Shown: piece by piece, positions 10,557 to 28,148 of the stretch | Numbering within the stretch: position 1 is the stretch's first letter | Layout of the letters: every line of letters starts with the position of its first letter | Source of the DNA: a virus | DNA: 33,007 bases | Direction: 5' to 3' (one strand) | IMG/VR virus record: IMGVR_UViG_3300021076_000097 | Span: 1-33,007 of that record | Position numbers and translations under genes: made by a program | The notes under the pieces: model-generated | Told to the model about the DNA's origin: nothing | The model's database searches: none | Seen by the model: the letters and a program-made list of their open reading frames with translations, nothing else

Positions 10557-11015
10557 TTACTCCCCCGTAATGGTAACATGATTGATGGCGTCTTCATTGC
10601 GCGAGAATAGAAGGTGCGTCTCATCCGTAAATTCTTCTTCAGCTTCTTCAACCGTTTTTGCGCTCGTTGGGAAGACCATTGTAACGTAAGTGTCACCTAT
10701 CGCATATCCAGCTTGTTTGCGGTTGGCGTTCCCAGAGAATACATTGTACCCATGCAATTCAATGGGTTCGTTATCAATATAAATAACAAAATCACCGCTC
10801 AAAATTAGTAATGTTGGAATCTTCATAAGCGAACCAACTATTGTCACACCAGCTGGAACCATAATCGTTCGTGAATACATTCCAGCGTGAATCAAATGAG
10901 ATGTCGGAATTAAGGTTTGTGGTAATTGACCAACAAAAGCCTCAAGACGACGAACATTGGCAATCGTCACTTCACTCATAGTATCTATGCGACGCTCAGC
11001 CACTGCATTAGACAT
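10557..11015 (-). CDS. Cupin-fold phage protein (hypothetical)
   Basis: The 152-residue protein runs VGQLPQTLIPTSHLIHAGMY, SRTIMVPAGVTIVGS, ILSGDFVIYIDNEP, then RKQAGYAIGDTYVTMVFPTS. This is the strand order of a single-domain cupin seen in a small conserved protein of many podovirus tail regions. The usual metal-binding histidines are mostly absent: the family's VGxxH position reads VGSLM here. A catalytic role is therefore unlikely and a structural one more likely. It overlaps the GNAT gene by eight bases, and this pairing with an acetyltransferase recurs in related phages as far as I recall. Function is unknown. Confidence 0.65.
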   Translation of the reverse strand: MSNAVAERRIDTMSEVTIANVRRLEAFVGQLPQTLIPTSHLIHAGMYSRTIMVPAGVTIVGSLMKIPTLLILSGDFVIYIDNEPIELHGYNVFSGNANRKQAGYAIGDTYVTMVFPTSAKTVEEAEEEFTDETHLLFSRNEDAINHVTITGE

Positions 11016-11466
11016 TCGTTAATTTCCTGAAAAACACACGATTAGTCTCAACATACCCTATATGGGGTAAAACTTCAGCTAGATTACCACCAAAGGGGGC
11101 GCTAATAAAGAGGCATGGAGATTGTCTTTCTGCGGCATATTCTTCAGCAGCGCGAATAAGTTTAAGTCCAGCGCCTGTTTTACGATGCTCTTTGGCAACA
11201 AAAAGGCTTTCAGTGACCGACATAAGAACCCCGCAATGAGGGAAAATAGATACTAAAACAGTTACAAAACCAACTAATTTATCGTCCAAAAAAGCACCAA
11301 TCGCCTGCAAAGAACCCAATTTTTCAAGGTTATAATACATTTCCATCTTAGCAGAAAACGGGGGTGCGCCGTCCACAACAAGTTCAGTCGCATATTCAGC
11401 CAATAAATCTGAAAAATTTGGTGCAGATTCAAGGCGCGATACTGTACATTTACAAATATTAATCAC
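11008..11466 (-). CDS. GNAT-family N-acetyltransferase
   Basis: The protein has the GNAT order: an N-terminal helix pair, LGSLQAIGAFLDDKLVGFVT (beta 2-4), then ESLFVAKEHRKTGAGLKLIR with the acetyl-CoA-binding loop (the classic Q/RxxGxG/A is HRKTGAG here), helix AAEEYAAERQ, and a C-terminal strand ending YVETNRVFFRKL. I place the start at GTG 11466 because GGGAG lies six bases upstream. A longer frame from TTG 11493 or ATG 11484 would overlap the tail tube gene further and lacks a good site. The protein would have 152 residues. The target is unknown: a virion protein, a host protein or a small molecule. GNATs recur between tail tube B and the ejection genes of podoviruses. Confidence 0.75.
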   Translation of the reverse strand: MINICKCTVSRLESAPNFSDLLAEYATELVVDGAPPFSAKMEMYYNLEKLGSLQAIGAFLDDKLVGFVTVLVSIFPHCGVLMSVTESLFVAKEHRKTGAGLKLIRAAEEYAAERQSPCLFISAPFGGNLAEVLPHIGYVETNRVFFRKLTNV

Positions 11467-14344
11467 TCGTATCTCCCATTTCATACCAAACAATAAGGCT
11501 GTTAAGGTTTATAGGAAGGGGATACTGCGTCTGAACAGCAATTTGTGCATTGGTTTCCCAATCGGCGGGAGCTTCAATATATTCATCACCAGTATATAAT
11601 GGCGCTGAATTACCAGGAATAACAGCAGCATTTCGTTCTCTCGATGGATAAAGACCCGTCCACGTTATATTGGCATTATTTGGCTGGATGGATGCATCAG
11701 GCTGATTAACGCCGATTGAAATGCCCCTTGATGCCTCCATACGCGCCGTAACGCCAAATATCGACTTACGCTTGCCCTGTGGCGTGTCTTTTTGCCCTGG
11801 TGGGTCAAGGTACATAGTTTGTAATTGACACGTGTACGGCAATCCTACGGTTATTTGGGAGGCTGCCAGAGGCAATGTCACGGTGCCGTTAACAACAGTC
11901 TGACTAGGAACGACAGAGCCATCCGCCAATATAGAAACTTCCAAACCGTTTAAATGATTTAACCCGCTCACAGACGTTGTTGGCGTTCCTATTGACCAGT
12001 TCCCTGATATTTGGGGTATTGGCGTATTATTCGGGTCATTGGGAATAGTTTTAGTTATAGGTGTCGTTATGTTGGCCGTAACACTTGTTCCTGACGTATA
12101 AGACGTAATTGTAGCCACCCCACCGCCAGTTCTAATAACATCCCCAATCATGCCAGAAGAAAAAACCGAGGATGAAGCTGTAAAAACAACATTATTGGTA
12201 ATTACGGCGCTTACAACCGCACCCGAACCTGTACTATCGGATATTAATATACTGGTTTGACCTAATGTATAATTTTGACCTTCAGTTAATGGAGTAACTG
12301 CTGTGATAACACCAGCAACAACCGTAACGCTAAAAGTAGCTCCAAAACCTTGCCCACTGGCATCGACCGCAACAGCAGTAGGCGATGTATATCCTTCTCC
12401 CCCAAAAGCCACGAGGGTATTTGATATATTACTTGTCCCGTTTGCCGATGTCGCATAAATTGTAGCTGATGGATAATTTAAAGCCAAAGTAAGCCCTGCA
12501 TCAACGCACCAGCAACTACCAACATCTTGCCACAAACGATTATTCATGCGTTCTGAATAATAAACGTAAACACCATTTACCAAACGCTGCGTTACAATAT
12601 ACAAAGCATCTACAGGTGGCTCTACAACAGTGCAAACGCTGGCATACAATCCATTGGTGTCGTGTCTTGCCCAAGCATAAACATCTTGTTCTTTAAGGTA
12701 TGTAAAAGACAACATGGTGCCATCATTTCTAACGCACCATATAAGTTTGTACGGTTCTTCAGCATAAGCCCATTGAATAATTTCATAACCAGTAAACAAC
12801 TGGTTTGAAAGAACGGTAGTGTCCGTTCCCGTATAAATGTTAACAAAGAAATTATAAGATAAATCTCTTACGATTGATCCTTTGGCTTGCACATATAAAA
12901 TATCGTAATTAACCACAATAGGCGGGACGGTTGAATTGCACCCATTATAGGCTTGAGGTTGTGCGTCCTGATCTGACGGCGTAATAGCTGCACTATTGCC
13001 GCCGTTTAATTGCCATGCTCCAGAACCTGTCAAAACAACTAACCCACCTGGCATGGGAACAAGAAATTGAATACCATTAACCTGTTGCGCCCACGGTGAT
13101 CCAGTTATTGAGTCAGAGTCGGCAATAGGTATGGCATAGTCAAAATTAAGAAAAGCCCCTGGCTGGCTCATGTAATACGTATCTGGATTATCAATTGTAC
13201 TTGCATAAACGCGACGTTGCTGAAAATACGCTACGCATCCAGGGTAATAACCCGTCCCTGTAAAAGGGTTTTGATGCTGAGGGGGGACAGTCGTAAAATC
13301 AGGTTGAATGTTTGTGTCAACAAAACTTGTTGATAAACTTGTTCCGGCAAAACCAAAAAGAACTCCAGAAGGTTGCGCGGTTCCATACGAAGGCGTTGCT
13401 TCATATATATTGTAGCTTGTAGCCCCGGTCACGGCTGACCACGTAATAGTATTGCTACCTGCGTATATTGATATGTCGTTATTGTAACATTGAGCTACAT
13501 TTGAAGCGATACTTTCTTCGCCATCGGAAGCAACGGCAGTAACAACATACTGATAATAGGTTGTCGCAGTTGTGGAAGAATTGGCTGTAGCGGAGGCACC
13601 AGTAGGGGCAGATATAGAAGAAGCAAATGTTACTTCTGTAAAAACCCAATCTGTCGCCCCATCACGCTGAAGATCATAAGGCGGATAATCATAAGGCGAA
13701 CTTTCATCAACATAAGAAACACATGTCAAAGACATTGTGTTTGCGCTTTGAGTATATTTTAAATAAGACAAATCTTCAGCAGCATAAGGGGCTACCACAG
13801 TATAAATACGGGCAACCGTGCCGCCAGTAGAAGCAGTTGCCGAAGTTACGTTATTTCCAAAAAGATCTTGAACATTAAAAGTATTAGTAGTTTCTGCTGT
13901 AACAACCCAAATTAATCCGCTAAAACCCGTGTTTCCCGAATCATAAAGCCAATCCCCGACACTATAACCATGAGCCGTAGCTGTAAACAGCCCAGCAGAA
14001 CTGACACTTGTTACAGTAACGGCACTTTCTAAAACGTAAGCACCATCGGACAAGATACGCATATATTCATCGCCAAATTCCAGTGCGTATCCTTGGTCAA
14101 TGTTAAATTGAAACGGAATAAGCCGTGGCGGATAGCTGGATACTGTGCCACCGACATTAGGCGCATTCTGCTTACACATTCCGCAATACGCAGTGCCTGC
14201 GCGTGATGCAGCCCCCCCACGATAATTGGCGAAGAAATTACGATAAGTAGAAGCCCCCGAATGATATTTTTGAAGATCCGTTCTGCCAAAAACGGATGGG
14301 CTAAGTTCACCTGAAGAAAAGCTATTTTGGATTGTGGTCAGCAA
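11459..14344 (-). CDS. Tail tubular protein B (nozzle), T7 gp12-like
   Basis: The 961-residue protein begins TTIQNSFSSGELSPSVFGRT and YHSGASTYRNFFANYRGGA, the N-terminal signature of podovirus tail tube B and related tail stabilisation proteins. It forms the distal nozzle through which DNA and internal proteins pass. Compared with T7 gp12 (about 794 residues) it carries extra domains: a fibronectin-III-like segment at about 243-320 (YYQYVVTAVASDGEESIASN, then ATSYNIYEA), and at about 643-718 a Gly-Tyr-Thr beta module (GGEGYTSPTAV, later GQNYTLGQTSI) of a kind found in bacterial and phage adhesins. These may touch host glycans. The start is TTG, overlapping the tube A stop by seven bases, with GGGGA eight bases upstream. 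Confidence 0.88.
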   Translation of the reverse strand: MLTTIQNSFSSGELSPSVFGRTDLQKYHSGASTYRNFFANYRGGAASRAGTAYCGMCKQNAPNVGGTVSSYPPRLIPFQFNIDQGYALEFGDEYMRILSDGAYVLESAVTVTSVSSAGLFTATAHGYSVGDWLYDSGNTGFSGLIWVVTAETTNTFNVQDLFGNNVTSATASTGGTVARIYTVVAPYAAEDLSYLKYTQSANTMSLTCVSYVDESSPYDYPPYDLQRDGATDWVFTEVTFASSISAPTGASATANSSTTATTYYQYVVTAVASDGEESIASNVAQCYNNDISIYAGSNTITWSAVTGATSYNIYEATPSYGTAQPSGVLFGFAGTSLSTSFVDTNIQPDFTTVPPQHQNPFTGTGYYPGCVAYFQQRRVYASTIDNPDTYYMSQPGAFLNFDYAIPIADSDSITGSPWAQQVNGIQFLVPMPGGLVVLTGSGAWQLNGGNSAAITPSDQDAQPQAYNGCNSTVPPIVVNYDILYVQAKGSIVRDLSYNFFVNIYTGTDTTVLSNQLFTGYEIIQWAYAEEPYKLIWCVRNDGTMLSFTYLKEQDVYAWARHDTNGLYASVCTVVEPPVDALYIVTQRLVNGVYVYYSERMNNRLWQDVGSCWCVDAGLTLALNYPSATIYATSANGTSNISNTLVAFGGEGYTSPTAVAVDASGQGFGATFSVTVVAGVITAVTPLTEGQNYTLGQTSILISDSTGSGAVVSAVITNNVVFTASSSVFSSGMIGDVIRTGGGVATITSYTSGTSVTANITTPITKTIPNDPNNTPIPQISGNWSIGTPTTSVSGLNHLNGLEVSILADGSVVPSQTVVNGTVTLPLAASQITVGLPYTCQLQTMYLDPPGQKDTPQGKRKSIFGVTARMEASRGISIGVNQPDASIQPNNANITWTGLYPSRERNAAVIPGNSAPLYTGDEYIEAPADWETNAQIAVQTQYPLPINLNSLIVWYEMGDTSD

Positions 14345-15129
14345 AGGCTAAATCCCCAACTAATGTTGTCATACCCTACGCCTTGCCAAACATCCCAACC
14401 GCCGGAGCCGCCAGAACGCGCTCTTATCCAATCAGGTTGATTGTCCTGACAATTACTGCCTTCATTTCCATCTGCTGTCCTAGCTTGCATAATAATTTCT
14501 TCGGCCATGCGGGCTTGCATTTGCATCAACGGCAAATTCATGGCAATGCCTGGACATAAAAAAGCCGCCAAAGATGCTACAAATGCAGCTTCAAATTGCG
14601 AATCCCAAATCGTTGGAATTGGTTGATTAACAATATAATTAAGTTGAGCCTGATCTTGATTAGTAAGGATAACGCTAATAGGACTTCCGCTTGAATTTGT
14701 GCTGTAAGCAACCTTAAAAGGGATTTGACCACGACCACGAAAATAAATAGGCGCTGGAACACTACCAGTTGTATAATTCGTGCCACTTAACTGGGCCGGA
14801 TACGTAGGAACAATAGCTCGTGCTTTAAGCATGTCAGTAGGGGCTGCATACATATAAAGCCAAGGTGTAGGAACGGTTAAACCATAGCCAGTAGTTCCAC
14901 CTTCAGGCGTACCTGCTGCCGCTCCCAATATTGACAATGAAGCTTGCTGAGATAAACAATTCCACCAAGCAGTTCGCGCTAAAGATTGAAATGTAGGAAG
15001 ATACAAAAGATTGCAAGCATTTGCGGCAACACTTTGATCGCTAGGAAATACGCTGCTTATGGTTGATTTGCCGCCTATTGCCATTAAAGATCGTTGGCAT
15101 AGACTTAATTGGCTTGATGCTGATGTCAC
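14338..15129 (-). CDS. Tail tubular protein A (adaptor), T7 gp11-like
   Basis: The 263-residue protein shows the adaptor family pattern: LCQRSLMAIGGKSTISSV, then AANACNLLYLPTFQSLARTA and the conserved aromatic WWNC segment, and later FEAAFVASLAAFLC with a helical C-terminus. This protein forms the ring between the portal and the nozzle. It starts with GTG at 15129 (AGGTG about five bases upstream), 11 bases after the staple-like gene. Its stop overlaps the nozzle start. The gene order staple-like, tube A, tube B is consistent with head completion and tail assembly. Confidence 0.88.
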   Translation of the reverse strand: MTSASSQLSLCQRSLMAIGGKSTISSVFPSDQSVAANACNLLYLPTFQSLARTAWWNCLSQQASLSILGAAAGTPEGGTTGYGLTVPTPWLYMYAAPTDMLKARAIVPTYPAQLSGTNYTTGSVPAPIYFRGRGQIPFKVAYSTNSSGSPISVILTNQDQAQLNYIVNQPIPTIWDSQFEAAFVASLAAFLCPGIAMNLPLMQMQARMAEEIIMQARTADGNEGSNCQDNQPDWIRARSGGSGGWDVWQGVGYDNISWGFSLC

Positions 15130-15527: not shown

Positions 15528-16250
15528 CTAAGCCGCAAGATTTTCAATTTCATCAACAGAAATAGGTCGGATATCTTCAGCCACATGCTCTACTGGAGTC
15601 ACAGTTGTTACTTTTGGAAACATATATTCATATTCACCAATATGCCCAATTTCTTGCGATAAATCATGATCGCAAAACATTTTTACGCCATGAACACGTA
15701 AAAGCGTCGAAAAATAAACATCCGATCCAACATAATCTTGTTTTTCTTCAAGCCAGCGAATTTCAAAACGAGGCTTAGGAATTTCTCTAAAAGATGACAC
15801 GCGAGCCAAAAAACTTGCACCCCCCATGGAAGCGACTTCTTGTAATCCTGTCTTACCAGTTGAATTCAAGCGGTTGCCGCTGGTGTCGCACAAGATGCCC
15901 TTAACTTCATTAATATCATGCATAGTTTTATGACGATAATTGGTTGTCACAACGTCTTTATTGTGCTGAATAAGACGATCAACAATATTGTTAGGAAATG
16001 TCATATCGTCATCTAAAGATAACCAATGGGTGTAATTCCCATTAATCATCTCATCGACAAATTTTTCTTGGGCTATAGGAAGAACGCTAACTTGGCCGTA
16101 TGAACGAAACTGGACATCTTGAAGTTTATATCCAGATACGCCAATGCCAGTTGTCATCAAATAGGACATAAGTCCTACAAGGGAAGAACCAAATTTGCCC
16201 TTCCAATCCCTGTTACTGGCCACGCTAACATAAAGCCTTACATTCTCCAT
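15528..16250 (-). CDS. GT-A fold glycosyltransferase
   Basis: The 240-residue protein starts with RLYVSVASNRDW and contains THWLSLDDDMTFPNNIVDRL, in which Asp80-Asp81-Asp82 form the DxD-type motif that holds the metal and sugar nucleotide in GT-A (GT2-like) enzymes. A later VASMGGASFLARVSSF fits the acceptor-site loop, and WLEEKQDYVGSDVYFSTLLR plus DHDLSQEIGHIGEYEY fit the catalytic and metal-binding C-terminal part. There is no transmembrane segment, so it should be soluble. It lies within the head-tail operon, between a Ser/Thr-rich structural gene (gap of 11 bases) and the staple-like gene, with AGAGGA before ATG. Virion-protein glycosylation is an inference; modification of host glycans is an alternative. 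Confidence 0.8.
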   Translation of the reverse strand: MENVRLYVSVASNRDWKGKFGSSLVGLMSYLMTTGIGVSGYKLQDVQFRSYGQVSVLPIAQEKFVDEMINGNYTHWLSLDDDMTFPNNIVDRLIQHNKDVVTTNYRHKTMHDINEVKGILCDTSGNRLNSTGKTGLQEVASMGGASFLARVSSFREIPKPRFEIRWLEEKQDYVGSDVYFSTLLRVHGVKMFCDHDLSQEIGHIGEYEYMFPKVTTVTPVEHVAEDIRPISVDEIENLAA

Positions 16251-16261
16251 TAAAATCCTCT

Positions 16262-16789
16262 TTACGACAGACGATCAACCCAGAAATTAGAACCTGCGTT
16301 AAGCGTAGTAGCCGTTGCATTGCTGACATTTTGCGAGAAAGATAGCGCAAAAGTACCTGCCGTTGCAGCTGAAATCGTACCTGTAACGTTAACTGTAGTA
16401 ACCAATCCTGTGTAAGCTAAAAGATTGCTGGACAGGGCCGTAATATTACCTTGTGCAGCCACCGTAGCGGTATTGTAAGCCCATGTATCAGCAGACAAAG
16501 TTGTCGCCGTAGCTGTGCCAGTAAATTGAAGCTTTAGACCGCCAGATGCACCGTTAGTTACCGACAAATAAACGTCAAAAACGTAAACGCCAGCGGCTTG
16601 CAAACTAACTGACATGCCGCTTGACGTAATAAGCGTAGTCGAAGTTACCGAAACGCTGTTGGCAAGATACGTGCTGCCCTCAAAGTTAGTGATTTGCGTA
16701 AGACTGAATTGCTCAGTCGTAGCCGCAGGATAACCGTTTCCAGAAATACCCTGTACGATTACTAGTTCGTTACCAATAGGATTTGCCAT
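16262..16789 (-). CDS. Ser/Thr-rich beta structural protein, probable head or tail decoration
   Basis: I start at ATG 16789 (175 residues, MANPIGNELVIVQG) with GAAGGG about ten bases upstream, rather than the in-frame TTG two codons earlier. After a short conserved-looking head the protein is almost purely Ser/Thr/Ala/Val/Gly in alternating pattern, for example AAGVYVFDVYLSVTNGASGG and the end AGSNFWVDRLS. This resembles jelly-roll or C1q-like decoration and fibre domains. Charged residues are nearly absent. It is directly upstream of the GT-A glycosyltransferase and offers many hydroxyl side chains. The exact virion location is unknown. Confidence 0.6.
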   Translation of the reverse strand: MANPIGNELVIVQGISGNGYPAATTEQFSLTQITNFEGSTYLANSVSVTSTTLITSSGMSVSLQAAGVYVFDVYLSVTNGASGGLKLQFTGTATATTLSADTWAYNTATVAAQGNITALSSNLLAYTGLVTTVNVTGTISAATAGTFALSFSQNVSNATATTLNAGSNFWVDRLS

Positions 16790-16791
16790 GA

Positions 16792-17199
16792 TCAATCATT
16801 CCCTTCTTTTTCGCCACCTTTAGTGGCTTTGTCTAAAATTTTGTCTTTCTTTTCGTGCGATTGCATTTCTTTTTGATGTTCGGTTTCGCCAAGCTCTTTT
16901 TCATGGCGAGAATGCATTTCTTTCATTTCTTTTTCGTGACGAGTATGCATGTCTTTTTTATCAGTTTTGCCAACCGTGTCATGCATAGCGTGTTCATGTT
17001 CATGGCGGCTGTGCATATCATGACGTTCTTTGACGTGACGGACATGTGCTGGCATTACTTCATGATTATCGGATTCTTTCATGGTTTCATCGTTGCCAGA
17101 TTTTTTGGAATCTTTCTCAATACGGCTAATTTCCATATCGCCGTCTTCTCCACGTTTCATCGTAGGCGATTTGCCATACATACGCGATGCTCTGCTCAT
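16792..17199 (-). CDS. His/Met/Glu-rich repeat protein (hypothetical)
   Basis: This 135-residue, very hydrophilic protein has about one histidine in eight residues. It contains a repeated unit M-H-[ST]-R-H-E-[HK]-E: MHSRHEHEHAMHD (about 72-84), MHTRHEKEMKE and MHSRHEKELGETEH (about 94-118), with shorter HVRHVKERHD before them. Lys and Glu fill the rest, which suggests a long helix or disorder. Such His/Met clusters could bind metal ions, but that is only suggested by composition. ATG overlaps the upstream stop (ATGA) and its own stop lies two bases before the next ATG. I do not recognise a family. Confidence 0.6.
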   Translation of the reverse strand: MSRASRMYGKSPTMKRGEDGDMEISRIEKDSKKSGNDETMKESDNHEVMPAHVRHVKERHDMHSRHEHEHAMHDTVGKTDKKDMHTRHEKEMKEMHSRHEKELGETEHQKEMQSHEKKDKILDKATKGGEKEGND

Positions 17200-18018: not shown

Positions 18019-18576
18019 TTAACCGGCAATAAAATTCGAAGCGTATTGATTGCCCAGCAAACCAGCTTTTGTGCCAGCAAAGCTTGGAGGATTTAGCGTT
18101 ATAAACGAATTGACGCTAAGGGTAATGGTCGTGTTCGATACCGTGTAAACAAGCTTGTAAAAGCGAGGAAGTGCTTCGCCCATAGCTGCCAAGGTAGGCG
18201 GTACAGGAAAGTACAAAACAGAACCAGCGTACAGCATCGTACTGCCAGAAAGTGCAGCGGACGTGTAAATGGTAGTGTAAGTTCCTTGACCATACGAACC
18301 GCTATCAGGAGCTGCCTGCAAGGTGATTGTCATGGTTCCGGTTACTGTCGTGACGGTATTAATCGTTACGACAACATAAGGTTGCGCCATTCCATCGCCG
18401 ACACCGTAATCAACGCCGATTGCAGTATTGGTTGCAGGGAAGCCATTAATCATTGCGGGAGCAGTGCCTGAGCCAGCACCCGTAATATCAATGATGGTGG
18501 AGGTTGTGGTTGTATTAGCAATTGCTAGTACAGTGTTGACCGCCGTATTGAAAGAAAGTGAATTGTCGAGATACAT
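18019..18576 (-). CDS. Capsid cement/decoration protein, Bbp16-like
   Basis: The 185-residue protein is rich in Thr, Ala and Ser. The N-terminus YLDNSLSFNTAV, then TSTIIDITGAGSG, a YVVVTINTVTT-type strand, FPVPPTLAAMGEALPRFYKL and final GLLGNQYASNFIAG follow the pattern of Bbp16-type cement proteins, which trimerise on capsids of BPP-1-like phages and stabilise them. It sits 11 bases after the major capsid gene with AAGGAG before ATG, and is followed by the terminator, so scaffold, capsid and cement form the strongly expressed end of a transcript. Confidence 0.75.
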   Translation of the reverse strand: MYLDNSLSFNTAVNTVLAIANTTTTSTIIDITGAGSGTAPAMINGFPATNTAIGVDYGVGDGMAQPYVVVTINTVTTVTGTMTITLQAAPDSGSYGQGTYTTIYTSAALSGSTMLYAGSVLYFPVPPTLAAMGEALPRFYKLVYTVSNTTITLSVNSFITLNPPSFAGTKAGLLGNQYASNFIAG

Positions 18577-18587
18577 TATTTTGCTCC

Positions 18588-19652
18588 TTACGACAGTGTT
18601 GCTTCAGTGTTGGTCAAAGCATCGACCACACGGATGGGGATATCGCGGAAGGCCAATACAGGATCACCTGCAAAATCCTTACTCGACAACAAAACGTTTT
18701 TGTCGCGAATAGCTTGGATATCCAAGTTTTCACGAACAGTACGGTTGCAATACCAAGCTGGATTAATACCAGGTGCTGGTTCACGAGGACTATCACTTTC
18801 AGTAATGCCAGAAGCGCGACGAGTAAGGGTCGGCAACTTAACAACTGCACGCGACATCAAAGCAAACAAGTCAGGAGGTGTCGTTGAGAACAATCCGCCT
18901 GCGTTTGTAGTCGTATCAATGTTGCAGATACGAACCGTATAGCGCCAATCCTTAACAGCTAGGCCGCACTTCCAGCAGAAATAGCTGGTGTAACCTTCAA
19001 ACTGGTTGCCGTTGGTATCGTAAAGAGCGCGAACGTCACCCTTGTCTTCATACTGAAGACCAGCTGGCGAACCTTTGGGGAAAATACCAAACAAAGTTTC
19101 ATCGCCCCACCCACCAAGCCACAAAGAGGCGTTGGCTGATGCTGTACCGCCAGCATTAAGTACGTTTACGGCATTCTTCGCATTTGAAGACGTAATCGTA
19201 TTATACTGAGGTGCAAGACCCGTAAACTGTTGTGGGTTTGTGGCTTCGTTCGAGTAGAACAGAGCCGAAGCGATCTGCTGGCTAAGACCTTCGATGTGCG
19301 CCATATCTTGCGACAAGCGGAAAGCATCTACATCACCGTTCAAAGATGCTTCAGACTTATCTACCAAGCTGTAATCAACCAATTCGCCAATGGCAAACTG
19401 GAACTGAGCTTGGAGGGGTTTTGTGGACGCAACGCCTTGGTTGTTGCCACGCCATGTACCTTGCGGCAAACCAGCGCGAACCGAGATTTTGTGGCCAAGA
19501 GGAAGATTGCCTTCCTTCCAGATAATATCCTTCAGGACTTCGTTGCATTGAGAAAGCAATTCTGCAATGTCAGCAACTGCACCATCGGGATCGACGCTTC
19601 GTGCCCAATCAACGAGATTTGGTAGGACGTTATAGCTAAATGCACCAGCCAT
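18588..19652 (-). CDS. Major capsid protein
   Basis: The 354-residue protein begins FSYNVLPNLVDWARSVDPDG, then IAELLSQCNEVLKDIIWKEG, NLPLGHKISVRAGLPQGTWR and NNQGV. This is the N-terminal signature of a major capsid family common in podoviruses that use Bbp16-like cement. The remainder includes FRLSQDMAHIEGLSQQIA, ASLWLGGWGDETLFGIFPKG and FRDIPIRVVDALTNTEATL, consistent with the HK97-like A and P domains. Length is normal for the family. A strong AGAAGGAG ribosome site and an upstream hairpin fit high expression. It follows the scaffold gene after an 84-base gap. Confidence 0.92.
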   Translation of the reverse strand: MAGAFSYNVLPNLVDWARSVDPDGAVADIAELLSQCNEVLKDIIWKEGNLPLGHKISVRAGLPQGTWRGNNQGVASTKPLQAQFQFAIGELVDYSLVDKSEASLNGDVDAFRLSQDMAHIEGLSQQIASALFYSNEATNPQQFTGLAPQYNTITSSNAKNAVNVLNAGGTASANASLWLGGWGDETLFGIFPKGSPAGLQYEDKGDVRALYDTNGNQFEGYTSYFCWKCGLAVKDWRYTVRICNIDTTTNAGGLFSTTPPDLFALMSRAVVKLPTLTRRASGITESDSPREPAPGINPAWYCNRTVRENLDIQAIRDKNVLLSSKDFAGDPVLAFRDIPIRVVDALTNTEATLS

Positions 19653-25690: not shown

Positions 25691-26428
25691 TTACTCCGTT
25701 ATTTCCAAATGTTCAGCATCAGGCACAAAATGCCACGGCAGTTTTAAAATATTTACAAGCGGCTCAAAGCTAACTGGTTTGTAACGAGATATAACATACA
25801 AAGGTTTTTGTAGTTTCAAAACCTCGCACAGCAACACCAGTGATGTATCTATTGTAATTACCCGTTCTGCTTTTTCAATAACTCCAATCCAATCAAACAA
25901 AGTAAAACCAGAAATTTCACGCAAATACACCGCATTTAATTGCGTATTAATTTGCATTTCGCCCGTGCTGCAATGACCATTAACCAATGTGTAAGAGTTT
26001 TCAATTTTTAGTTTTTTTTCCAATTCTGCCTCTTTTTTAGGCAAACGTTTAATTTTGACATAATTTGCCCAATCCGACCAATCCATTTTCAAAAACGAAT
26101 ATTTGGATGTCATCATACTGCCGTTCATCGCCTGATAGGCAGACCCTATGGGTAAAAACACGAACTTATCCGAATGACGGACAGGGGATGTAAACGGTTT
26201 ATTGGCCGTCTCATTATGCAATTTGGTAAACTCGTTAGAATATTCAAAGTCAGTTCCTAAAATTTGATACTCGACATTAGGATGGGATTCAAAATAAGAA
26301 GCAATCCAATAATGGCGATCAAGTAATGGGAAAACAACTTTAAACCCCATGTCAGCATATCGCTTAACAATCTTTTGGATAAACATGACATCGCCAATCC
26401 CATGCGGTTGGTCAATCATGATTTTCAT
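25691..26428 (-). CDS. GT9/heptosyltransferase-like glycosyltransferase
   Basis: The 245-residue protein shows the GT-B order of GT9 enzymes. The N-terminal PHGIGDVMFIQKIVKRYADM resembles the nucleotide-sugar family's glycine-rich start (GDxLxxxP), and the C-terminal half has YTLVNGHCSTGEMQIN, a SGFTLFDWIGVIEKAERVIT strand-helix, TIDTSLVLLCEVLKLQKPL in the donor-binding position, then YVISRYKPVSFEP. At 245 residues it is shorter than bacterial heptosyltransferases (about 320-350). It overlaps the methyltransferase by ATGA and probably acts in the same glycan pathway. Activity and sugar are unknown. Confidence 0.65.
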   Translation of the reverse strand: MKIMIDQPHGIGDVMFIQKIVKRYADMGFKVVFPLLDRHYWIASYFESHPNVEYQILGTDFEYSNEFTKLHNETANKPFTSPVRHSDKFVFLPIGSAYQAMNGSMMTSKYSFLKMDWSDWANYVKIKRLPKKEAELEKKLKIENSYTLVNGHCSTGEMQINTQLNAVYLREISGFTLFDWIGVIEKAERVITIDTSLVLLCEVLKLQKPLYVISRYKPVSFEPLVNILKLPWHFVPDAEHLEITE

Positions 26429-27108
26429 GCTTGCCTCGGTTTACACAAATAATTTCCACCCACAATTTCGCAATCATAATCGTAAGCCTCAAAAAACCTA
26501 CGAATTGCCCCCATATTCGATTTTATAATTTCAACAAAACAAATGGGCTTACATCTTTTAATTGTTTCTCTTGCGCCTTCTAATACATCAAACTCCATGC
26601 CTTCAACATCTATCTTGATCAACTTGGGTAACAGCCCAAACGCATCAATCATTGTTATACCGGCATGTTCGGTTGAATTTTGCCTAGGCTGAGTCAATTG
26701 TTCAGTTTGTCTATCGCCAAATTCAATGCTGCCGAAATTTAATTCTTTTGAATAATCAAATTTTGGAACGTTAATATATCCATGCTGTTTTCCTACGGCC
26801 AAGTTATAAGCATAAACATTCTCAAAAGCATTCAAAGCAATGCTTCCACAAAGCATGTTATAAATTATACGTTGCGGCTCAAATGCAAAAACAGTTTTTG
26901 CCCTCGAAGCCAAAGCCAACGAGAAACAACCAAAGTTAGCCCCAACATCTAAAAAAACATCATCAGAACCAATTAATTTTTCCAATAATTCAATTTCTGC
27001 ATGATCTATGGATTTGCCCGTTTCAACCAGAGCGTTTCTTTGATTAATGTCGTTTTTATTGACAAGCATTTTGCCGTAATTGGTGTCAATGATTTCAGTA
27101 TAGCTCAT
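26425..27108 (-). CDS. FkbM-type SAM-dependent methyltransferase
   Basis: The start is ATG 27108 (227 residues, MSYTEIIDTNYGKMLVN), since it overlaps the glycosyltransferase stop in an ATGA junction; a longer frame to 27156 would run far into that gene. Motif I is VFLDVGANFGCFSLALAS (Asp54, Gly56, Asn58), followed by acidic motif II VFAFEPQ, and later the FkbM signature LIKIDVEGMEFDVLEGARE with C-terminal PICFVEI. Family members O-methylate sugars or small polyketide-like acceptors. Between two glycosyltransferases it most likely methylates a sugar, possibly to cap a glycan. Confidence 0.85.
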   Translation of the reverse strand: MSYTEIIDTNYGKMLVNKNDINQRNALVETGKSIDHAEIELLEKLIGSDDVFLDVGANFGCFSLALASRAKTVFAFEPQRIIYNMLCGSIALNAFENVYAYNLAVGKQHGYINVPKFDYSKELNFGSIEFGDRQTEQLTQPRQNSTEHAGITMIDAFGLLPKLIKIDVEGMEFDVLEGARETIKRCKPICFVEIIKSNMGAIRRFFEAYDYDCEIVGGNYLCKPRQA

Positions 27109-28148
27109 GTCAAGGTTCCCAAATAGTCTTCCCATTCTTTTGCACGAGCATCCCAATTACACGCACGCGCGTAGGCAACTTGACCTTCCCTGTCAAACCA
27201 CGAAAGATTACTTATTGAATTAACAACATGCGCAGCAAACCTACCCGCCACGATAGGGGTAATATCAGGTTGTAAATCCATCAACGCCCCAAACCCAGCG
27301 CAGGTTTCAGGCAACGCGCCCAGCTCGGTTGATATAATCCCACAACCTGCCGCCATAGCTTCCATTGCGCTGATGCAAGAGGTTTCGGGAAACGTAGAAG
27401 GATATGTCCAGTAATCTATGCCAGACAATTCATCAGCCAACCGAACTTGCGATAATGCGCCGACATACTCAACGCCTCGTATATTCTTGGCCGTTTCATA
27501 CAATCCTTCATAAGGGTCAGTTTCTCCATAAATCGCCATGCTCGAAAATATCTTTAATTGACATTCAGGTATATGCTTTCGTATCGTCGAAAACGCCAAC
27601 AACAAAACATCCAACCCGCGATAAGGCGTCGATGTATAAGCAAGCGTAATGTTATCATGCAAACAACGCTCAACATGTAAGAACGGTTCGCTTATCGCAT
27701 TTTTGATAATTCTGGTTTTATCAAATATGCGAAACGACAATTCGTAACGCGACTTTTGCCATTCGCTTACAAATACAAACCCGGAATAAATGGATTTTTC
27801 TTCCGGCGTCGCCAAATTAAAACACGCCGGTTGATTGCTATCATGATGCGCCCACAAAACAATCGGCTTCTTGCAACCAACAGATTTCAATTTGCGACCC
27901 AATGGCACAGAAACGGGAATCAAAACATCATAATCATTGGGTTGAACTTTTTCACTTTGCGAAATGAATTTAACATTTTTAATTTCGCGTGGTTCCGTAA
28001 CACCGTTTACAACCGTAATGTCATGCCCACGCAACGCCAAAGCTTCCGACAATCCGGCCACAGCCGATTGCGTGCCTCCAAGGGGTTCGCTTAAACCCGT
28101 TAAACAATCATAAGCGCGTGGGGAAAGATCAATAAAAAGAAGTTTCAT
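27105..28148 (-). CDS. GT4-family glycosyltransferase
   Basis: The 347-residue GT-B enzyme starts MKLLFIDLSPRAYDCLTG with the donor/acceptor loop EPLGGTQSAVAGLSEALALR, then GHDITVVNG. The C-terminal domain has LAYTSTPYRGLDVLLLAFST, VEYVGALSQ and the GT4 EX7E region FPETSCISAMEAMAAGCGII (Glu...Glu), then STELGALPET. There is no membrane segment. It is joined by ATGA to the gene before it and after it, so the small 80-residue protein, this enzyme, the methyltransferase and the GT9-like protein form a translationally chained set. The substrate is unknown; a nucleotide sugar from the host is expected. Confidence 0.87.
   Translation of the reverse strand: MKLLFIDLSPRAYDCLTGLSEPLGGTQSAVAGLSEALALRGHDITVVNGVTEPREIKNVKFISQSEKVQPNDYDVLIPVSVPLGRKLKSVGCKKPIVLWAHHDSNQPACFNLATPEEKSIYSGFVFVSEWQKSRYELSFRIFDKTRIIKNAISEPFLHVERCLHDNITLAYTSTPYRGLDVLLLAFSTIRKHIPECQLKIFSSMAIYGETDPYEGLYETAKNIRGVEYVGALSQVRLADELSGIDYWTYPSTFPETSCISAMEAMAAGCGIISTELGALPETCAGFGALMDLQPDITPIVAGRFAAHVVNSISNLSWFDREGQVAYARACNWDARAKEWEDYLGTLT

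Follow-up and report, generated by a model that had tools for sequence, protein, structure and literature searches.

Glycosylation of virion proteins by phage-encoded glycosyltransferases has been described for the mycobacteriophages Che8, Corndog and Myrna, in which capsid and tail-tube subunits are modified (Freeman et al. 2023, as cited in PMC12363180 and PMC12619734). In the Alphaproteobacteria, a soluble cytoplasmic enzyme, viz. FlmG of Caulobacter, attaches O-linked glycans to flagellin (PMC7591256). The present work concerns a gene for a predicted glycosyltransferase in a viral DNA of 33,007 nucleotides (positions 1 to 33,007 of the IMG/VR record IMGVR_UViG_3300021076_000097), the whole of which is referred to below as the window. 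In an original prediction made from the letters of the window, this enzyme and the Ser/Thr-rich protein encoded beside it were proposed to form an enzyme-substrate pair for the O-glycosylation of virions, and a cassette of sugar genes elsewhere in the window was proposed to complete a two-site pathway.

The enzyme and its genomic setting

The source of the window is an epsilon15-like podovirus, i.e. a short-tailed phage, and the order of its head-tail genes is similar to that in epsilon15, BPP-1 and the Cobetia phage Carin1. The features of this region are as follows.

18588..19652, minus strand: major capsid protein (MCP) of the GP7 type (Pfam PF20911, E 1.5e-109)
18019..18576, minus strand: cement protein (phrog_427, E 2.8e-7)
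16262..16789, minus strand: Ser/Thr/Ala-rich protein of 175 aa, starting with the ATG at 16789
15528..16250, minus strand: predicted GT-A-type glycosyltransferase of 240 aa (phrog_1574, E 5.9e-8)
16005..16013, minus strand: DxD metal/nucleotide-sugar motif of the enzyme, residues 80-82; D80 and D82 are invariant in the 22 sequences of alignment A5
15720..15722, minus strand: D177 of the enzyme, putative xED aspartate, invariant in A5; role assigned by position after PMC7185993
15642..15644, minus strand: H203 of the enzyme, candidate metal-binding C-terminal histidine (C-His), invariant in A5; role likewise assigned by position after PMC7185993
15141..15518, minus strand: gp10-like capsid protein, encoded downstream of the enzyme (Pfam PF21628, E 1.4e-10)
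14338..15129, minus strand: tail adaptor, which serves as landmark on the right-hand side of the enzyme slot (phrog_394, E 4.7e-28)

The GP7 capsid, cement, gp10-like and adaptor genes, together with a nozzle gene (phrog_376) that is also part of the minus-strand head-tail operon, surround the two ORFs, which are thus located within the head-tail cluster as predicted. The gap between them is indeed 11 bases, with the gene for the Ser/Thr-rich protein being first and that for the enzyme second, and both are among the extra genes which the cement-adaptor interval of the window holds. The phrog_427 profile that matches the cement protein also picks up the validated cement gene of Carin1. The enzyme ORF has an ATG start and an SD-like sequence (AGAGGA), and based on the low dN/dS values relative to near-identical contigs (0.05 for the enzyme and 0.10 for the Ser/Thr-rich protein; 0.007 for the capsid protein), both frames are genuine and under purifying selection. 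Positions 16792-17199 encode a strongly charged protein (45% DEKR), rich in His and Met and with repeated MHxRHEKEM-like motifs, whose relatives are found at the equivalent position in the related loci L115 and L121. A gene for a GNAT-type acetyltransferase (phrog_1249) is present in the tail operon at 11008-11493, in the position of epsilon15 gp13.

In a profile search, residues 13-209 of the enzyme were matched to positions 21-234 of the 240 positions of phrog_1574, a large and widespread family that is listed with unknown function in PHROGs v4. All 22 sequences of alignment A5, comprising the window enzyme and 21 others, match this family, of which the window enzyme is a distant member (E 5.9e-8, compared to 8.1e-26 for the best member). 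A sequence search of the PDB gave no usable match for either the enzyme or the Ser/Thr-rich protein. The AF2 model of the enzyme (pLDDT 81, pTM 0.80) is good over the core, and it aligns with many GT-A chains at VIA Z scores of 19.4 to 12.8 over 160-190 residues. The best structural matches are to residues 293-522 of LH3 (Z 19.4), which we take to be a non-catalytic accessory domain of this protein, and to Mnn9 and STIV A197 (both Z 17.8), with mimivirus R699 (Z 17.2) and COLGALT1 (Z 16.3) being further matches. Protein glycosyltransferases account for many of the highest-ranking Foldseek matches, and the teichoic-acid enzymes TarP, TarS and RmlT are matched at Z about 13. Membership in the Anp1 family (PF03452) was rejected, as the score of 14.9 bits (E 0.019, around the DxD region) is below the Pfam cut-off of 28.8.

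The signature of GT-A enzymes consists of a DxD motif, an xED aspartate and a C-terminal histidine (PMC7185993). The DDD predicted at residues 80-82 is present in the translated ORF, and the xED motif, which is GED in most relatives, reads GSD in the window enzyme, with Ser in place of Glu in its lineage. No membrane-like segment was detected in the enzyme (the highest 19-residue Kyte-Doolittle mean is 1.27), and a Pfam scan revealed no TPR family within its 240 aa, which consist of the GT-A domain only. The identification as a GT-A enzyme is borne out by the fold model and by the active-site signature, which is intact, and the protein is a predicted soluble glycosyltransferase of this type.

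The Ser/Thr/Ala-rich neighbour and the second sugar cassette

The protein encoded next to the enzyme is nearly uncharged and Ser/Thr/Ala-rich, as had been claimed (28.6% Ser+Thr, 41.7% Ser+Thr+Ala and 4.6% DEKR). Its further description as a beta protein is only weakly supported by its model, in which beta structure is predicted at low confidence (mean pLDDT 54). A likeness to TNF-type ligands was considered and rejected (best Foldseek E 4e-3, none below 1e-3, model poor). Outside near-identical contigs, the sole matches to this protein were in the C-terminal domain of long fibres of Streptomyces phages, to which it shows about 35-39% identity. Because its homology is confined to these sequences, it is probably a fibre-type C-terminal domain that serves as a minor virion protein. 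In Streptomyces-type phages (L196, L197, L198 and L017), the long fibre gene is followed by genes for a glycosyltransferase and a methyltransferase; this glycosyltransferase belongs to another family than the window enzyme. The cement protein (24.9% Ser+Thr, 4.9% DEKR) and the fibre/spike-like protein encoded at 755-2167 (25.5% and 4.7%) are also Ser/Thr-rich, as originally stated, and the product of the ORF at 19-366 is of similar composition (20.9% and 2.6%).

If the enzyme were dedicated to this neighbour, then the two genes should be found together in related phages. However, the neighbour is restricted to near-identical contigs, whereas the enzyme is present in dozens of phages that lack it. 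The original prediction had itself regarded the occurrence of the enzyme without the neighbour in relatives as evidence against the pair; such relatives exist, and the pair fails. Apart from the near-identical contigs, no homologue of the neighbour was detected in the other enzyme loci examined, and a Ser/Thr-rich, low-charge protein is the immediate neighbour of the enzyme in 1 of 75 other enzyme loci. In this locus (L022), a protein of 685 aa that is Ser/Thr-rich and almost uncharged directly follows the enzyme, and it is not homologous to the window neighbour. Conversely, a Ser/Thr-rich protein occupies the equivalent slot in L115, the nearest relative without the enzyme, where no enzyme gene was found across the 60-kb contig. 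The head operon of this phage carries an inserted gene for recombination endonuclease VII (L115:11593-12138; PF02945, E 1.5e-21) just upstream of the slot protein.

A similar pattern is seen in larger sets of loci. The cement-adaptor interval was covered in 41 GP7-type loci and the enzyme is located inside it in four of them (the window, two near-identical contigs and L128), whereas Ser/Thr-rich proteins are encoded in this interval in 19 of the 36 GP7 loci that are without any enzyme. Among phages with a second capsid type, those with and those without the enzyme both encode Ser/Thr-rich proteins after the adaptor. Further, a comparison of enzyme-positive with enzyme-negative phages revealed no difference in Ser/Thr content that could be read as a signature of modification (20.4 vs 20.2% for the MCP, 9.5 vs 9.1% for a small protein and 19.3 vs 20.7% for the adaptor). 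Ser/Thr richness, which is shared by other virion proteins of the window and by many phages without a glycosyltransferase, was therefore rejected as evidence for a substrate; due to the common occurrence of such proteins with and without the enzyme, composition is no guide to the substrate. Based on these observations, the enzyme and the Ser/Thr-rich protein are not a conserved unit.

The second group of sugar genes in the window is composed as follows.

25691..28148, minus strand: second sugar cassette of three genes (profile matches to GT4 and FkbM)
27105-28148, minus strand: GT4 glycosyltransferase (profile match)
26425-27156, minus strand: FkbM methyltransferase (profile match)
25691-26428, minus strand: third cassette gene, which may be GT9-like (motifs)

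Among the loci searched, this lineage-specific cassette was confined to near-identical contigs. The FkbM gene is present in the window and in one of four near-identical relatives; from the other three it is cleanly missing, with the flanking GT4 gene and the next gene adjoining. By BLASTP, no homology was found between the cassette enzymes and the GT4 or TPR-GT9-like genes that occur in the flagellin islands described below (E 0.12 and 0.55). The GT4 enzyme and the methyltransferase could extend or cap a sugar, and nothing joins the cassette to the enzyme at 15.5 kb in the manner that the proposed two-site pathway implies; this pathway is not conserved.

Relatives of the enzyme in phages and bacteria

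Of 70 loci that were selected solely by the second capsid type, 41 have the gene order MCP, a protein of about 104 aa, enzyme and adaptor, while in the remaining 29 the gene for the 104-aa protein directly adjoins the adaptor gene. Presence of the enzyme switches just twice on the capsid tree, and the gene is thus stable within clades. It is also located beside the capsid gene, or close to it, in Microcystis phage Mel-JY34 (enzyme gene at 34662-35357 of PP438425.1) and in spring-water phages, and in the GP7 group it additionally occurs between the portal and scaffold genes (L117, L119 and L128). These different positions within the GP7 group indicate that the gene either was acquired by the head module on several occasions or has moved. 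The enzyme therefore, as these loci exemplify, recurs in the head module across unrelated capsid types, usually between the capsid and adaptor genes; because many phages with an equivalent head module have no enzyme, it is dispensable for assembly. In the enzyme tree, the window enzyme forms a clade with those of L021, L022 and Mel-JY34 (support 96/87). The GP7-type phage L128 also carries genes for a second GT-A-like protein and a methyltransferase-like protein after that for a 665-aa Ser/Thr-rich protein (L128:13302-15859).

A scan of bacterial genomes identified homologues of the enzyme at 30 loci. In four alphaproteobacterial MAGs, the homologue is located 235-273 bases before a flagellin gene, which is followed by FlbT and FlaF (Pfam-confirmed), and GT4 and TPR-GT9-like genes surround the homologue in these flagellin islands. 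In four Methylobacterium genomes, flagellin is 0.1-1 kb from the homologue, while three further Methylobacterium loci were too short for its proximity to be judged. The enzyme tree, in which resolution of the deep branches is poor, places the two flagellin-linked groups in separate clades, and the window enzyme shares only about 35% identity, over 138 residues, with the enzymes of these groups. The genomes concerned, of 1.5-6.3 Mb, contain only 1-6 flagellin genes, and in three of the MAGs the adjacent copy is the only one found; with flagellin genes being so few per genome, chance adjacency is unlikely. When Alphaproteobacteria were sampled broadly, close cellular homologues proved to be rare (4 of 289 in the class and 2 of 150 in the order sampled), and the flagellin link is therefore limited to 8 loci in two clades. 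For most cellular homologues (13 of those on the tree beyond Methylobacterium), no flagellin was within reach. In L285 and L292, the homologue is directly before a gene for a VapE-like helicase/primase, in prophage-like DNA of Rhizobiales and away from structural genes. The flagellin neighbours are the best, if indirect, hint that this family may act on proteins, although a position beside flagellin falls short of proving it to be what the homologues modify.

Proposed role and comparison with known systems

As the enzyme gene is part of the operon that builds the particle and has bacterial relatives beside flagellin, transfer of a sugar to a particle protein is probable. Our main reading, to which we assign a probability of about 0.5, is that the phage encodes with this gene a protein O-glycosyltransferase whose target is some virion protein. 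Of the earlier proposal, O-glycosylation of virions is thus retained as the likeliest role, in view of the recurrent place in the head module and the flagellin-side homologues, while the neighbour as dedicated substrate is not. If this reading is correct, then the gene would yield an active, soluble GT-A glycosyltransferase that is presumably co-expressed with the late virion genes. It would take one sugar from a host nucleotide-sugar and transfer it in the cytoplasm, before or during assembly, to Ser/Thr residues of one or more particle proteins, the virion target and the O-linkage both being putative. The candidate substrates would be the Ser/Thr-rich neighbour, the cement protein, the tail fibre and the capsid, and it is adjacency alone that favours the neighbour. 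More tentatively, and at somewhat less than even odds, phrog_1574 may consist of widespread protein O-glycosyltransferases that act on flagellin in bacteria and on particles in short-tailed phages, where the gene is an optional occupant of a recurrent slot in the head module.

The reading that the enzyme specifically glycosylates the adjacent Ser/Thr-rich protein draws on the 11-base spacing, on the composition of the neighbour, and on two parallels, viz. the Streptomyces-phage fibres ending in the same C-terminal domain, behind which a glycosyltransferase and a methyltransferase (of other families) are likewise encoded, and the 685-aa protein directly after the enzyme in L022, a member of the supported clade of the window enzyme. 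However, with the window neighbour absent from all other enzyme loci, an immediate neighbour of this kind in just one of the other 75, and Ser/Thr-rich slot proteins in L115 and in 19 of 36 GP7 loci that have no enzyme, we regard this reading as unlikely. If the enzyme instead modified the host, acting on a surface glycan or a flagellin/pilin-type protein for superinfection exclusion or receptor masking, then the cellular homologues near flagellin and the fold match to TarP, TarS and RmlT would be accounted for. This is likewise improbable, as many phages have the gene within their head module and, against a serotype conversion of the Gtr type, the enzyme is without a membrane-like segment and a scan of neighbouring genes revealed no gtrA/gtrB-type partner.

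It may also be argued that catalysis has been lost and that the GT-A fold serves as a structural or assembly factor, since the gene sits among structural genes, the xED motif reads GSD in the window lineage and the top structural match is to a non-catalytic domain of LH3. However, D80, D82, D177 and H203 are invariant even in distant members, and the gene is missing from many phages with an equivalent head module, which makes this explanation quite improbable. Least credible is that the enzyme glycosylates modified phage DNA as the T4-type enzymes do: phage glycosyltransferases acting on DNA are known (cited in PMC12619734), but no thymidylate-synthase-family enzyme, which is needed for hydroxymethylated bases, was found in the window or in five related contigs of 26-60 kb (possibly incomplete), while a control search was positive.

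If glycosylation of a virion protein by this enzyme is confirmed, then such modification would be common among environmental podoviruses rather than a speciality of mycobacteriophages, an unnamed protein family (phrog_1574) could gain an annotation, and the decoration of phage particles would be tied to the glycosylation of bacterial flagellin. As phrog_1574 is present in a cultured phage (Mel-JY34), the idea is directly testable.

Of the described viral proteins, STIV A197 (PDB 2c0n) is likewise a GT-A protein of small size and aligns over 165 residues (Z 17.8), but it is from an archaeal virus and is 18% identical to the window enzyme. The Anp1/Mnn9 mannosyltransferases (PF03452) are matched by structure (Mnn9), but not above the Pfam cut-off. 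The FlmG system resembles that proposed here in its soluble, cytoplasmic enzyme and its Ser/Thr-rich polymeric target, and the cellular phrog_1574-type enzymes are found beside flagellin, FlbT, FlaF and a TPR-GT9-like gene; however, FlmG combines an N-terminal TPR-type flagellin-binding domain with a transferase domain, whereas the phage enzyme is without TPR and has a GT-A fold. With the mycobacteriophages, the window shares phage-encoded glycosyltransferases, although the phages are of other types and the glycan is a prediction in the present case. Glycosylation of virions by phage glycosyltransferases is thus already known, and what is new here is the family phrog_1574, its recurrent slot and its link to flagellin.
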